Below the pieces are notes generated by a model, which did no database searches, was not told the origin of the DNA, and saw nothing but the letters and a program-made list of their open reading frames with translations. Source: Flavobacteriaceae bacterium (GTDB lineage: Bacteria > Bacteroidota > Bacteroidia > Flavobacteriales > Flavobacteriaceae). From it: a stretch of 56,458 bases of DNA. The DNA lies in the NCBI GenBank assembly GCA_017851655.1, contig JAFMMH010000005.1, positions 1 to 56,458 of the forward strand, read 5' to 3'. The translations under genes were made by a program, and so were the position numbers. The first letter of the stretch is position 1, and each line of letters starts with the position of its first letter. Shown here one piece after another: positions 5,216 through 34,197 of the stretch.

Positions 5216-6568
5216 TTAAAACAAGAAATCTGTAAGGGATTCTACCTTTGTGAAAAATAGAGGCTTGATTGTTTTTGGGTCAGATCCCAATTTGGAGAAT
5301 TTAGAAAGCGCAATATTTTCAAAGCCTAATTTTTCAGCTTCTTGTACTCTTAATTCTGCTTTTGCTACAGGGCGGATTTCTCCAGAAAGTCCAATTTCCG
5401 CAGCAAAACAAACATGTTGTGAAATAGGAGTATCGTGATAACTAGAGAGTAAAGCTGCTATTACGGCTAAGTCTAATGCAGGATCTTCGATATTAATTCC
5501 TCCAGTAATATTGATAAAGACATCTTTACTTCCCAGTGCGAAGCCAGCTCTTTTTTCAAGTACAGCTAAAAGCATATTCAGTCTTTTTGCATTGAATCCA
5601 GTACAACTGCGTTGTGGCGTGCCATAAACAGCGGTACTGACTAAAGCTTGAACCTCGATCATCATTGGGCGTAAGCCTTCTACTGTTGCTGCAATAGCAT
5701 GCCCACTCAAGACTTCATCTTTTGGAGAAATAAGCATTTCACTTGGATTATGAACTTGACGTAATCCTTGAGTTTGCATTTCGTATATCCCAATTTCAGA
5801 GGTGGCTCCAAAACGATTTTTTTGAGCTCGTAAAATACGGTACACATGGTTTCGATCACCTTCAAACTGAAGGACGGTATCTACCATATGTTCAAGTATT
5901 TTGGGCCCAGCAATGGCACCGTCTTTTGTAATATGTCCTACCAATATTACAGGAGTATGGGTGGCTTTAGCATATTGTATGAGTTCTGCTGCTGTAGCTT
6001 TTATTTGAGAAACACTACCAGCTCCACTTTCTATATGAGGGGTGTGAAGGGTCTGAATAGAATCTATAATGAGTAATTCAGGACTCAGTTTTGGAAACTG
6101 TTCAAAAATCTTTTGGGTATCAGTTTGACTAAGAAGAAAGCAGGAATCCGAACTCAACCCCATTCGGTCTGCACGAAGTTTGATTTGTTGTTGACTTTCT
6201 TCTCCTGAAACATAAAGAACCTTTTTATCAATACTTAAGGATAACTGAAGCAGTAGTGTAGATTTTCCAATTCCTGGCTCTCCGCCCAAAAGAATGACTG
6301 ATCCTGGTACGAATCCTCCTCCCAAAACACGATTTAATTCTTGGTCTGTTGTTTTAATCCTTGGTATTTCCCCAGTTGCGACTTCGCTCAGGGGGATAGG
6401 TTTTGATGTACTAGTTTTGGGATCTGTATTCCAGTTTGGCACCTTTTCTTTTTCGATAATTTCTTCAACCAGGGTATTCCAAGCACGACACGCATTGCAT
6501 TGACCTTGCCATTGTGCATGTTGCGTACCACAACTTTGACAGAAATAAGCTTTTTTCAGTTTAGCCAT
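5216..6568 (-). CDS. radA: DNA repair protein RadA (Sms)
   Basis: RadA is a RecA-like ATPase that helps branch migration and processing of recombination intermediates. The 450 residues contain, in order: an N-terminal C4 zinc finger (Cys10, Cys13, Cys24, Cys27); a Walker A motif GGEPGIGKST at about 95-104; the Walker B-like strand LLIIDSIQT near 165; the RadA-specific KNRFG motif at 250-254; and a C-terminal Lon-protease-like domain (from about 270, NITGG...DPALDLAV). It begins directly after the stop of the upstream UPF0104 gene with no spacer, so it is probably cotranscribed with panC-panD. Confidence 0.95.
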   Translation of the reverse strand: MAKLKKAYFCQSCGTQHAQWQGQCNACRAWNTLVEEIIEKEKVPNWNTDPKTSTSKPIPLSEVATGEIPRIKTTDQELNRVLGGGFVPGSVILLGGEPGIGKSTLLLQLSLSIDKKVLYVSGEESQQQIKLRADRMGLSSDSCFLLSQTDTQKIFEQFPKLSPELLIIDSIQTLHTPHIESGAGSVSQIKATAAELIQYAKATHTPVILVGHITKDGAIAGPKILEHMVDTVLQFEGDRNHVYRILRAQKNRFGATSEIGIYEMQTQGLRQVHNPSEMLISPKDEVLSGHAIAATVEGLRPMMIEVQALVSTAVYGTPQRSCTGFNAKRLNMLLAVLEKRAGFALGSKDVFINITGGINIEDPALDLAVIAALLSSYHDTPISQHVCFAAEIGLSGEIRPVAKAELRVQEAEKLGFENIALSKFSKLGSDPKTIKPLFFTKVESLTDFLF

Positions 6569-29631: not shown

Positions 29632-30525
29632 ATGCAAGTTTCGATAAAAAAGTGGTTGTACCTTCTAGTGCTTTCTCTGATCTGGGGCAGTTCCTATATC
29701 CTCATTAAAAAAGGACTTTTAGGTCTAACACCCCTTCAATTGGGATCAACTCGAATTTTAATGACGACCTTTATTCTGTCTATTTTAGGATGGAAACAAC
29801 TAAAAAACATTCCTAAAGAGTCGTGGAAATGGATCATTTTTACGGGTTATTTTGGAACTTTTTTTCCGAGCTATTTGTTTGCTTTTGCTGAAACCGTAAT
29901 TGACAGTTCAGTAGCTGCAGTTTTAAATGGGATGACTCCACTTTTTACACTAATTCTGGGGGTGTTATTTTTTAAATCAACATTCAAGTGGCTTAAAATT
30001 TTAGGGGTCTTAATTGGTTTCGGCGGAACATTAATTTTGGTAGGTAATGAGTTCACTATTCGTTCTGGCACTAATAGTTGGTATGCATTTTTAGTTGTTG
30101 CTGCTGCACTATGCTATTCAATTAATGTCAATGTTATTAAATATAAACTCCAGGGAGTACCTGCACTCAGTATAGCTTTAGGAAATTTTATTGCCATCAC
30201 AATACCTGCATTAGTCATTTTACTTTCCGTTGATTTTCCTTGGAATGAGGCACTTTATTCAAATGAGGTAAGTTCGTCTTTGGGTTATATATTTATTTTA
30301 TCATTGTTTGGAACTGCCCTTGCCAAAGTAATGTTTAATGAATTGGTGTCAATTTCTTCTCCTGTCTTTTCCATTTCGATCACTTATATTCTTCCAATAG
30401 TTGCTATTTCTTGGGGTATTTTGGATGGGGAGAAATTTGTATTTCTTCAGTGGTTTGGGTGTGCTTTAATTCTTTTTGGAGTTTACCTGATCACAGACAA
30501 AAAACGCCCCAAAAGAGGCGCTTAA
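29632..30525 (+). CDS. EamA-family (DMT) transporter
   Basis: An inner-membrane protein of 297 residues with ten predicted membrane segments and two EamA repeats (about 5-137 and 150-288). The first segment shows LIWGSSYILIKKGL and later AAVLNGMTPLFTLILGVLFF, both typical of drug/metabolite transporters. The substrate cannot be inferred. The last codons (KKRPKRGA) overlap a hairpin that looks like a terminator for the opposite-strand M16 remnant. Confidence 0.88.
   Translation: MQVSIKKWLYLLVLSLIWGSSYILIKKGLLGLTPLQLGSTRILMTTFILSILGWKQLKNIPKESWKWIIFTGYFGTFFPSYLFAFAETVIDSSVAAVLNGMTPLFTLILGVLFFKSTFKWLKILGVLIGFGGTLILVGNEFTIRSGTNSWYAFLVVAAALCYSINVNVIKYKLQGVPALSIALGNFIAITIPALVILLSVDFPWNEALYSNEVSSSLGYIFILSLFGTALAKVMFNELVSISSPVFSISITYILPIVAISWGILDGEKFVFLQWFGCALILFGVYLITDKKRPKRGA
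30499..30520 (-). terminator. terminator for the M16 remnant, inside the end of the EamA gene
   Basis: Read on the minus strand, CGCCTC and GGGGCG form a 6-base stem with a TTTT loop, followed by six T. It lies 20 to 45 bases beyond the stop of the minus-strand M16 remnant and inside the last codons of the EamA gene. Confidence 0.55.
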
Positions 30526-30543: not shown

Positions 30544-32001
30544 CTAGTTAAAGATTTTAGGATCTAATTCGCTGTTCAAATCAATTTCAGAGGTTGTAAA
30601 ATCTAACTCTTGAGGACCACTGGTTATGCTTTTTTTGTAAGGAAAAAGAATTCCAGAAACATCTTTATAGTCTCCAAACTTAGTCGTACTTGTTTGAGCA
30701 TTACCCATGATTTCAATAGTTTGAATGATTTGTACCTTGAGGAAGGTTTCAGTATCATAAAAATTGGTTTGATTTTCAGAAATCTTTATTTCATATGCTT
30801 TTTGACCATCAACCTCAGAAATACCGATTAATTGAACCTTTTCAAAATTTAAATCTAATTCAGGAAAAATAACAGTTTCATTTATAAATTGCTCCAATTC
30901 TTTACCTTCCAGGTCAATTTTTTGGCCTTGCATTTCCATATAGGCATAGGTTTTATTTGCGACTTGTTTCTGAACTATATTTCCCATCATTTTCATTTCC
31001 GTTAGAGATTGCTTTTCTGTGGTTTTATAATTAACAATTTCTATAGTCATTCCAGACATGGCAGCTTGGGAACTTTCTTTTAGAGTCTCAATCTCTTTTA
31101 ATTTTTCAGATCCTCCAATAGCCTTTAAATAGTTATCTATTACGAAAGCTGCAGTTGTTCCTTCAGGCATGGATTTAGAATAATCAGGACGATCGATTTC
31201 CTCACCCCATTTGTTATAATAGTTTAATTTTATTGGCTGATTATTAAAAGAGAGCTGTTCTAAGCCTTCCAAGATAGCACTCCCTTTTCCAGTTACAACA
31301 ATCCTCGCGCGATCATTTAAAAAGTATTTTTTAGCAGCTGCCATTACTTCTTCTTTACTTACGGCATTTATATTCTTCAGATAATTTTTGTAGAAATCAG
31401 CGGGTAGATTTTGAGTCTTTATATCTAGTGCAAAATTGGCAACTGTCTCGGGATCTTCAAGTGAAATCACAAAATTCCCTGCGTATTTTGCTTTTACTAG
31501 ATCCAGTTCCTCATCCGTGACAAGATCATTTCGAATTTTATCTATTTCATATAGAATTTCAACTACTGCACTATCGGTTACTGCATTTCGTACACTCGTA
31601 GAGGCTCTAAAACGTCCTTTTGTTTTATGTGAATCGCTTAATCCAGAATAGGCTCCGTATGTAAAACCTTTATCTTCTCTCAAGTTAAGAAATAGACGTG
31701 CTTCTGCGCCTCCCCCTAAAATTTGATTAGCTAAAATAGCTGCAAAATAATCTGGACTTCTTTTATTTAAAGAAATGGTATTAAGAAAAGTTATTTCTGA
31801 TTGAACTGCGTTGGGCATTTCAACAAAAGCAATCTCTGTTTGTGAGGCATTTGTGGGTTCAGGATAAGAAATTTTAGGAGTTTCTTTTGCTTTCCACGAT
31901 TCAAAATGTTTCTCCTGATATTGCTTCAAGAATAGGTTCTTCATGCACTGCAATTTGTTCAATTTTTTCTCCTTTTGGAATATCCTTAAAATATGTTTCA
32001 A
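30544..32001 (-). pseudogene. C-terminal remnant of a second M16 peptidase-like gene
   Basis: An open frame of 485 codons, but only the part from about 31920 downstream looks native (HFESWKAKETPKISYPEPT onward). It matches the second half of the non-catalytic M16 partner: the C-terminal M16 domain (FVEMPNAVQSEI, ANQILGGGAEARLFLNLRE, DKGFTYGAYSGLSD), then a beta-rich C-terminal extension of about 200 residues. The native N-terminal signal and first M16 domain are absent. The codons upstream of the junction belong to the other M16 gene read in a wrong frame. It is probably not translated, unless a frameshift joins it to the upstream part. Confidence 0.75.
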
Positions 32002-32671
32002 CTAATTTTTTTGTGGGTTCTATCTCAAAATCACCCGCAACAACAAGGACCGCATTATTGGGAACATAAAACTTTTTATTAAAGGCAATAAATTCATCTA
32101 ATGTGGCAGCATCAAGATGTTCCATTTTACCAATAGTACTTCTTTTATAGGGGTAGTTATTAAAAATTCTTTTTCTTACTTCTTCATTCCATCTTCCATA
32201 AGGACTATTGTCGTAACGCAATCTTCTTTCTTCTTTGACAACTTCATTTTGAGTTTCAACTCCAATTTCATTAATAATAGGGTGAAGCATTCTTTCAGAT
32301 TCCATCCATAAACTCAATTCCAAGTTATTAGAAGGGAAGACCTCATAGTAGTATGTATAATCGCTGTTAGTGTAAGCATTGTTTTTTCCTCCGTTGGCAG
32401 ATACAAGTTTAAACCATTCTCCTCGGCCAATATTTTTAGTGCCTTCAAAAAGTAAATGTTCAAAAAAATGGGCAAAACCTGTGCGTTCACTATTTTCATT
32501 TTTTGAGCCGACATGGTACAACACAGATGTCACTACAATAGGGACGGTGTTGTCTTGGTGCAAAATCACATGTAATCCGTTGTCTAAGTTGAATTCTTGA
32601 AATGCTACTTTTTGAGCATTTAGGGAAATTCCGAAACAAAGGATAAGGGTAAATAAAGAAAACTTATTCAT
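31901..32671 (-). pseudogene. N-terminal remnant of an M16 (pitrilysin-type) zinc peptidase gene
   Basis: A 256-residue product with a signal peptide ending near residue 19 (SLNAQ) and an intact zinc site: HFFEH at 68-72 and a third ligand Glu148 (EVVKEERR). It continues into the start of the second M16 domain (VPNNAVLVVAGDFEIEPTKKLVETYF) and stops after EEPILEAISGETF, where family members should continue for some 180 residues. From the junction near 31905-31925 the adjoining sequence continues in another frame with the C-terminal half of a different M16 protein. The zinc domain may still be made, but as a truncated product. Confidence 0.78.
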
Positions 32672-32778: not shown

Positions 32779-34197
32779 ATGAGATCTAACATCTACCTAA
32801 TTTTAATATTCACTTGTACTGTGAGTTTTAGCCAATCTAAGTATAAAGCAATACTCAAAAGTATAGATGATAGTCAGAAAACATATGCTGAAATAGCCCA
32901 ACAAATTTGGTCTTACGCAGAAATGGGATACCAAGAAGCCCAAAGTAGTGCCCTCTTGCAAAAAACTTTAAATGATCAGGGATTTAAAATAGAAGCTGGG
33001 GTAGCTGAAATCCCAACAGCCTTTGTAGCTAGTTTTGGCTCTGGAAGTCCTGTGATAGCAATATTGGGAGAATTTGATGCTTTGCCTGGACTTTCACAAC
33101 AAGCGGTTCCTTATAAAGCTTCAAATAATGGTAAGGCAGGACATGCTTGTGGTCACCATCTTTTTGGCACTGCATCAGCAGCAGCAGCAATTGCCATCAA
33201 AGAATATATGGAAAAGGAGGGGAAGTCCGGAACAATTCGTTTTTATGGTTGTCCAGCTGAAGAAGGAGGATCCGGGAAAGTATATATGACTCGTGAAGGA
33301 TTGTTTGATGATGTAGATATTGCCTTACATTGGCATGCAGATAATAATAATTCAGCTAGTGTTCGTCCAGCGTTGGCCAATAAATCGGCAAAATTTCGTT
33401 TTTACGGAGTCTCTGCACATGCTGCAGCAGCACCAGAAAAAGGGCGTTCTTCACTAGATGCAGTGGAGGCCATGAATAATATGGTAAATATGATGCGGGA
33501 ACACGTTACCGAAAGTACACGAATTCATTATGTCATTACCCGTGGAGGTGAGGCCCCAAATGTTGTCCCTAACTTTGCTGAGGTTTATTATTATGCGCGT
33601 CACAAAACAAGAGATGAAGTAACTCGTGTTTTTGATAGAATTGTTAACGCTGCAAAAGGGGCTGCGTTAGGAACTGGAACAACAATGGAATACGAGATGA
33701 TTGGTGGGACTCACGAATTACTATTTAATGATATCCTTCAACCCATGGTCCATAAAAATCTTCAGACTATCGGGGGGTATTCATACACAGAGGAGGAAAG
33801 AGCATTTGCAGAAAAGATTTCAGAGTCTTTGGGTCAAACCTTAGATACAACTTATGTTGAGGGTGTGATGCCCTACAGTGAGAATGCCAAATCAGGAGGA
33901 TCAACAGACGTAGGTGACGTCAGCTTTGCAGTGCCTACAGCTGGACTTAGAGCTGCTACTTGGGTTCCTGGCACACCTGCTCATAGTTGGCAAGCAGTAG
34001 CTGCAGGTGGGACAAGTATAGGTGAGAAAGGAATGATCGTTGCTGCAAAAACAATTGCTCTTACGGGAATGCAATTAATAGACAGCCCTAAAGTTATCAA
34101 AGCTGCTCAGGAAAACTTTATTCAAAAAAGAGGAGCAGATTTTAAATATACACCTATGTTAGGTGACCGGAAACCCGCATTAAATTATAGAAATTAG
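32779..34197 (+). CDS. secreted M20-family amidohydrolase (AbgB-like)
   Basis: A 472-residue metal-dependent amidohydrolase, probably cleaving an amide bond of an acylated amino acid or dipeptide-like compound. The signal peptide ends near residue 19 (VSFSQ). The metal-binding HACGHH lies at about 122-127 and GCPAEEGGSGK follows; the dimerisation lid contains GVSAHAAAAPEKGRSSLDAV. The EFDALPGLSQ segment is typical of AbgB and related M20D enzymes. The start at 32779 is preferred because of the promoter. It is followed by an unknown secreted protein gene after 5 bases. Confidence 0.87.
   Translation: MRSNIYLILIFTCTVSFSQSKYKAILKSIDDSQKTYAEIAQQIWSYAEMGYQEAQSSALLQKTLNDQGFKIEAGVAEIPTAFVASFGSGSPVIAILGEFDALPGLSQQAVPYKASNNGKAGHACGHHLFGTASAAAAIAIKEYMEKEGKSGTIRFYGCPAEEGGSGKVYMTREGLFDDVDIALHWHADNNNSASVRPALANKSAKFRFYGVSAHAAAAPEKGRSSLDAVEAMNNMVNMMREHVTESTRIHYVITRGGEAPNVVPNFAEVYYYARHKTRDEVTRVFDRIVNAAKGAALGTGTTMEYEMIGGTHELLFNDILQPMVHKNLQTIGGYSYTEEERAFAEKISESLGQTLDTTYVEGVMPYSENAKSGGSTDVGDVSFAVPTAGLRAATWVPGTPAHSWQAVAAGGTSIGEKGMIVAAKTIALTGMQLIDSPKVIKAAQENFIQKRGADFKYTPMLGDRKPALNYRN

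Follow-up and report, generated by a model that had tools for sequence, protein, structure and literature searches.

Most M16B peptidases are heterodimers of two-domain subunits, in which only one subunit carries the zinc site and both parts are essential, and adjacent gene pairs for the active and the inactive subunit have been described (PMC12731061). The flavobacterial locus analyzed in this work resembles such heterodimers (SPH2681/SPH2682 of Sphingomonas; TTHA1264/1265; AlbF/AlbE) in that its intact relatives likewise possess adjacent genes of an active subunit with HxxEH and of an inactive one. It differs from them in two respects: the inactive flavobacterial subunit has an extra C-terminal domain with a predicted LolA-like fold, and neither of the subunits is whole in the window, i.e., in the entire analyzed stretch of 56,458 nucleotides (contig JAFMMH010000005.1 of the assembly GCA_017851655.1, genome G000 below). 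Gene loss in small-genome free-living bacteria has been the subject of a general review (PMC4285135). The deletion pseudogenes and gene losses of these bacteria are similar to our case, where a dispensable operon was likewise lost by deletion, graded remnants occur in relatives, and the mechanism is not different. No literature on the loss of M16 pairs in flavobacteria was found, as judged by titles and abstract openings. Considering the evidence presented below, the window locus is very probably an M16B heterodimer operon turned into a deletion pseudogene, which is young and arose by an ordinary mechanism.

The intact M16 pair and its remnants in the window

The loci closest to that of the window, L002 (AG-901-E05) and L003 (MAG JJ.26), contain M16 genes for proteins of 436 aa (gene 1) and 689 aa (gene 2), separated by seven bases and located between the same M20 and EamA genes as the remnants in the window (L002, L003 and L022, the latter from Flavobacteriaceae bacterium TMED48, were taken as the same records as G025:C3, G015:C85 and G001:C19, respectively). 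Among the solved M16 chains, the intact gene 1 protein matched best 4nnz and 5euf, followed in third place by the active subunit of 3amj (E 6e-45), while the best match of the intact gene 2 protein was the inactive subunit 3amj_B (E 8e-28); we take 3amj to be the structure of Sphingomonas SPH2681/SPH2682. HxxEH was not seen by eye in the gene 2 protein of L002, and in the intact relatives this inactive partner is encoded by the adjacent gene. Scanning of 11 more distant loci revealed the pair followed by EamA in L004, L005, L008 and L009, the end of gene 2 followed by EamA in L006, the pair without EamA within the available stretch in L007, L010, L016, L018 and L019, and gene 2 in part only in L014. 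Family-wide, 91 of the 120 genomes (one per genus, the window's own included) matched the gene 1 protein at E≤1e-60, some of these matches being longer M16 proteins at about 29-38% identity. Judging by the distant loci and the family matches, the pair is most likely ancestral, and the window locus derived.

Table 1. Features of the M16 locus and its flanks, in window coordinates
Feature	Position	Strand	Remarks
Catalytic M16 gene, 5' remnant	31901..32671	(-)	256 aa; signal peptide, zinc-site domain, ~50 positions of second domain, TGA
Inactive M16 partner, 3' remnant	30544..31917	(-)	457 residues; ~residues 236-689 of 689
HFFEH zinc-binding motif, residues 68-72, retained	32456..32470	(-)	by eye, in translation and sequence
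Deletion junction	31896..31912	(-)	1,256-1,262 bp missing vs eight relatives; frame +1
C-terminal ~240-aa domain of inactive partner, complete in remnant, predicted LolA/LolB-like fold	30547..31266	(-)	
M20 peptidase gene, flank, divergent, intact	32782..34197	(+)	open frame starts 32755
EamA transporter gene, flank, convergent, intact	29632..30525	(+)	

The first-pass annotation of the window, made from its letters and open reading frames, had recognized two out-of-frame M16 remnants here (31901-32671 and 30544 to about 31920) and had attributed them to a deletion between neighboring genes; both frames were confirmed by the ORF translations. The signal peptide, HFFEH and Glu148 reported for the first remnant were indeed found by eye, at residues 68-72 and 148 in the case of the latter two, so that the remnant preserves the HxxEH and the downstream Glu in the first domain of an active M16B subunit. 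Pfam analysis recognized in it the whole Peptidase_M16 domain (E 7e-21) and, out of the 181 positions of Peptidase_M16_C, only 2-52, in agreement with the reported early stop in the second M16 domain. The first remnant shares 74% identity with the intact 436-aa protein (L002:2984-4294) over residues 4-256 of the latter, and 79% with G004. The second frame occupies 30544-32001 (-) and comprises 485 aa from the first possible start to the stop, its partner-homologous part beginning at about 31917-31926 and its first in-frame ATG after the join lying at 31818. Peptidase_M16_C positions 35-180 were recognized in it, and the remnant indeed represents the second half of the partner. Apart from the TGA at the join and the natural end, no stop was found in the remnants. 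The locus displays what characterizes a deletion pseudogene, namely a frame-destroying lesion where close relatives have intact orthologues, and neither subunit is complete with its two domains (gene 1 retains residues 1-256 of 436, gene 2 about 236-689 of 689). Judging by its sequence, the locus is thus probably a dead member of the M16B pair kind, containing no working pair.

The proposed course of events is as follows. The ancestor would have possessed a two-gene M16B unit, encoding a secreted catalytic subunit (436 aa) and then the inactive partner (689 aa, with the LolA-like tail). A single ~1.26-kb deletion, whose endpoints are not equivalent in the two genes and have only a short string in common, would have taken from gene 1 its second domain and from gene 2 its first, together with the spacer between them, and shifted the frame. 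As a result, gene 1 would now stop within its second domain, gene 2 would be devoid of a start, and formation of the clam-shell heterodimer is not expected; both genes were probably killed.

The deletion junction and its possible origins

The sequence at the join is ACATTTTGAATCG, with the ACA codon starting at 31909, within the interval 31905-31925 where the junction had been placed, and with a +1 shift of the frame directly followed by TGA at 31903-31901. Relative to eight genomes (G004, G012, G014-G017, G019, G020; G025 is absent from this set, as its second motif was not located by the script), the deleted length is 1,257-1,261 bp with fixed pairing of the two TTT codons and 1,256-1,262 bp allowing one base either way. 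The proposed size of 1.2-1.3 kb thereby held, and one base error, already disfavored in the first-pass annotation, is ruled out by the ~1.26 kb missing in comparison with each of the eight relatives. The M20-to-EamA distance (between match ends) is 2,259 bp in the window vs 3,515-3,561 bp in the nine intact genomes with the locus on one contig.

The join connects Phe256 of gene 1 with residue 237 of gene 2, while the gene 2 residue aligned with Phe256 is 263, which gives an offset of 26 in each of the eight intact pairs aligned (10 are known), close to the 'about 25 residues' first estimated. The accompanying statement that the middle of both proteins is missing proved correct as far as gene 1 has lost its second domain and gene 2 its first, but not for the shared fold, which has no gap and in which ~26 residues are repeated. 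At the first point, the relatives have GA(A/G)GC(N) and then TTTGAT in 8/9 cases and TATGAT in G012; at the second point, they have TTTGG in 7/8 cases and TTCGC in G019; the window at the join reads GAAACATTTTGAATCG. A string of few bases (CATTT or TTTGA) was likely shared at the break, as deduced from these relatives, which stand in for the pre-deletion sequence and of which the closest, G004, is 73-76% identical. Within the eight intact pairs, exact matches of gene 1 to gene 2 were at most 10-13 bp long (register and repeats were examined in 8 of 10 pairs, G013 and G022 being left out). The out-of-register join and the shortness of these matches point to illegitimate (short-repeat) recombination as the mechanism, and argue against homologous crossover as well as against an assembler misjoin. 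An unequal homologous crossover could be thought of because gene 1 and gene 2 are paralogues arranged in tandem and have the same fold, but with the join 26 residues out of register and ≤13 bp in common in 8/8 pairs tested it is highly unlikely, and it was rejected on the grounds of register and absence of shared sequence.

It is also improbable that the junction is an assembly artefact or reflects a strain mixture, i.e., that two reads or strains were joined and the true genome has both genes. The G000 assembly is indeed fragmented and incomplete (1.85 Mb, 130 contigs, 89.5% complete), the junction rests on this one assembly, and assembly faults probably occur in the set, as another decayed genome (G010) has frame breaks even in the flanking M20 and EamA genes. 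Usual k-mer joins made by assemblers, however, need a longer shared sequence than the ≤13 identical bases shared by the two genes in the eight intact pairs. Moreover, the join is located midway along a 56-kb contig, in which none of the other comparable genes is broken, and several other genomes have different deletions at the same place. Of the 52 relative ORFs mapped to the window, 46 were covered by ≥90%, the other six being four M16 rows, one antisense ORF and one running off the window end; no further broken gene was found among these ORFs. The mapping was performed with ORFs of 150 aa or more from G004 and G025 above 45% identity (pieces of 45% identity or less were dropped from this and the codon-position comparisons), covers the window, with gaps, from 7.9 kb onwards.

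The search of the G000 assembly with both whole proteins detected no missing halves elsewhere at E≤0.001, which is what the deletion proposed in the first-pass annotation implied for this 89.5%-complete genome. The same hybrid was detected in none of the 37 other genomes of the genus, nor, as that annotation also implied, was any version of it intact in one frame seen in the 27 assessable ones; the other 10 had no match to the pair, several of them being only 54-62% complete. The junction 32-mer had no match among viral contigs, an uninformative place to look. Overall, the original observation is confirmed, and its interpretation as a deletion is supported.

The age of the deletion was considered on the basis of differences to G004 by codon position. 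These were.156/.070/.441 in the first remnant and.207/.132/.481 in the second,.107/.052/.503 in M20 and.131/.051/.522 in EamA, and the intact G017-G020 comparison gave.153/.096/.534 and.192/.093/.518. At the sites fixed in six other genomes, changes in G000 only vs those in G004 only numbered 5 vs 1 in the first remnant, 11 vs 9 in the second, 6 vs 7 in M20 and 1 vs 4 in EamA. The ratio of 5 vs 1 is a hint of relaxation with a count too small to read, and changes at fixed sites are not clearly raised in the remnants, both of which look to be still under constraint. Since the codon-position differences are uneven, internal stops are absent and the fixed-site changes are not clearly raised, the deletion is, on these comparisons, young, and most of the divergence from G004 would predate it.

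The same open and seemingly constrained frames could be considered in favor of a functional chimera, in which a +1 slip at ACA TTT TGA (UUU to UUU, then GAA) would yield one M16-LolA protein. The junction does read TTT-TGA, a run where the +1 slip re-pairs fully before the stop, and such a run is comparable to the prfB frameshift site. Constraint is, however, equally explained by the youth of the deletion, and no relative with an in-frame version of the join was found, so that slippage is highly unlikely. Its product, in which the first domain from gene 1 would be linked to the second domain plus the tail from gene 2, would repeat 26 residues and be without a partner subunit.

Decay of the pair across the genus

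The genus set included 38 genomes, 28 of which were assessable; in G002, G005, G007, G018, G021, G023, G024, G026, G027 and G029 the locus was missing, split or cut off. Comparison with the M16 pairs of relatives, suggested as a check along with the original observation, revealed the pair whole at the same place in 10/28 genomes (G004, G012-G017, G020, G022 and G025), G022 being counted intact although a contig end divides its gene 2. Gene 1 of G019 is frameshifted. Stubs were detected in four genomes: residues 1 to ~65 of gene 1 joined to ~516-689 of gene 2 in G001, residues 1-89 of gene 1 in G008, ~414-478 of gene 2 in G011 and ~623-689 of gene 2 in G010. No trace of the pair was found in 12/28 genomes (G003, G006, G009, G028, G030, G031, G032, G033, G034, G035, G036 and G037). 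The M20-to-EamA distance amounts to 3,560 bp in G019, 873 bp in G001, 460 bp in G008, 355 bp in G011, 279 bp in G010, and 62-196 bp in eleven empty genomes.

In the tree built from RpoB and four flanking proteins, the window appeared as the sister of the intact G004 and G001 as that of the intact G025, each with support 100, while several deeper nodes were weak (47-61). This tree needs 8 losses if G009 is counted present and G019 intact, or 10 with both as losses; the flank-only tree (28 genomes) needs 9, or 10 with G019; and the RpoB-only tree (24 genomes, G009, G015, G020 and G031 lacking and some lineages grouped differently) needs 6, or 7 with G019. All these counts assume that the pair can only be lost, and regain by within-genus recombination between the flanks would lower them. 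Thus, the pair appears to have decayed repeatedly, with 6-9 separate losses needed by the trees (the G019 frameshift not counted), one of which, we infer, is the window deletion.

Taken alone, the window presents one more deletion pseudogene. Its value is that of a step in a series, as the same pair is whole, frameshifted, cut once, reduced to stubs or gone within one small-genome flavobacterial genus, and such a series lets one ask whether an envelope M16 peptidase was lost by drift or by selection. The whole gives the impression of ordinary gene loss caught midway, of which the repeated decay of the pair within the genus is the new part. That the loss of the M16-LolA heterodimer was repeatedly favored in the genus, beyond mere dispensability, is a tentative and rather doubtful proposition. 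If true, 6-9 lineages (G019 not counted) broke the pair separately, and the window caught one of them in the act; possible reasons would be that the pair processes a costly or exposed envelope protein, or that neighbors supply its product.

Replacement by another M16 protein was considered and rejected. A separate ~990-aa M16 protein occurs in some genomes where the pair was lost, such as G003, G006, G028 and G034-G037, and also in G013 and G015, where it was kept; it was not found in G000, G001, G008, G009, G010 and G030-G033. Its presence in genomes with and without the pair and its absence from several losers speak against a general replacement. As such, this protein marks a subset of the genus (including G003:C46, G013:C22, G015:C76 and G037:C1), both with and without the pair.

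Several of the decayed loci have peculiarities of their own. In G001 (L057, G001:C19, ~5300-6000 of the turned stretch), the deletion is larger and different, being in frame at the join by eye; only GG is shared there, the zinc site has disappeared, and a one-base gap follows at some distance. The aligned stretch of the protein search contains two TAA in this stub, which differs from G025 by.162/.024/.325 at the three codon positions, mostly at the third. Comparison of G019 (L051) with its sister G022 (L049/L050) gave few and rather even differences for the M16 pair (.023/.036/.059 and.026/.026/.057) vs.037/.031/.216 for M20, a pattern that may result from recent exchange followed by relaxed constraint, or from sequence errors. 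In G009 (L067, G009:C136), M20 directly adjoins gldD, the M16 pair and EamA being gone, and no EamA orthologue was found in this genome at E≤1e-40. In G010 (L066, G010:C155), M20 and EamA are themselves split by frame breaks, which suggests assembly or sequencing errors; because of these broken flanking genes, the detail of the G010 stub is doubtful.

The C-terminal domain of the inactive partner

For this domain, made up of the final 240 residues of the protein (window:30547-31266 (-); L002:5649-6368), no Pfam family was reached with any of the four sequences tried. The AlphaFold model of this domain, built with 12 sequences, had a pLDDT of 89.5 and a pTM of 0.80. The Foldseek search with the model revealed the LolA superfamily protein 3buu (E 4e-9, TM 0.53), P. 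gingivalis LolA3 9tp6 (E 1e-8) and also LolB. Altogether, 39 matches were obtained at E≤0.001, mostly LolA/LolB, the rest being RseB/MucB, a DUF1329 protein and mycobacterial lipoproteins, with TM-scores of ~0.5 at best. The modeled fold thus matches that of the LolA/LolB family, and the domain is predicted to be LolA/LolB-like. In comparison with the lipoprotein carriers 3buu and 9tp6, with which it has this predicted fold in common, the partner's domain is fused to an M16 domain and shows 10-12% identity; a carrier role is putative.

The domain could be aligned from loci within the genus and beyond it (23-56% identity to the window), and this draws attention to the inactive M16 subunit joined with a LolA-like domain, which is present outside the genus as well. 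A literature search for LolA with peptidase M16 in Bacteroidetes returned nothing relevant, a metasecretome paper being the only match, and the main text of PMC11885536, devoted to LolA and LolB in Bacteroidota, contains no match for M16 or peptidase. Two separate frames of G000 (C12:323-979 and C127:1419-2084) weakly match the C-terminal domain, at 24-25% identity.
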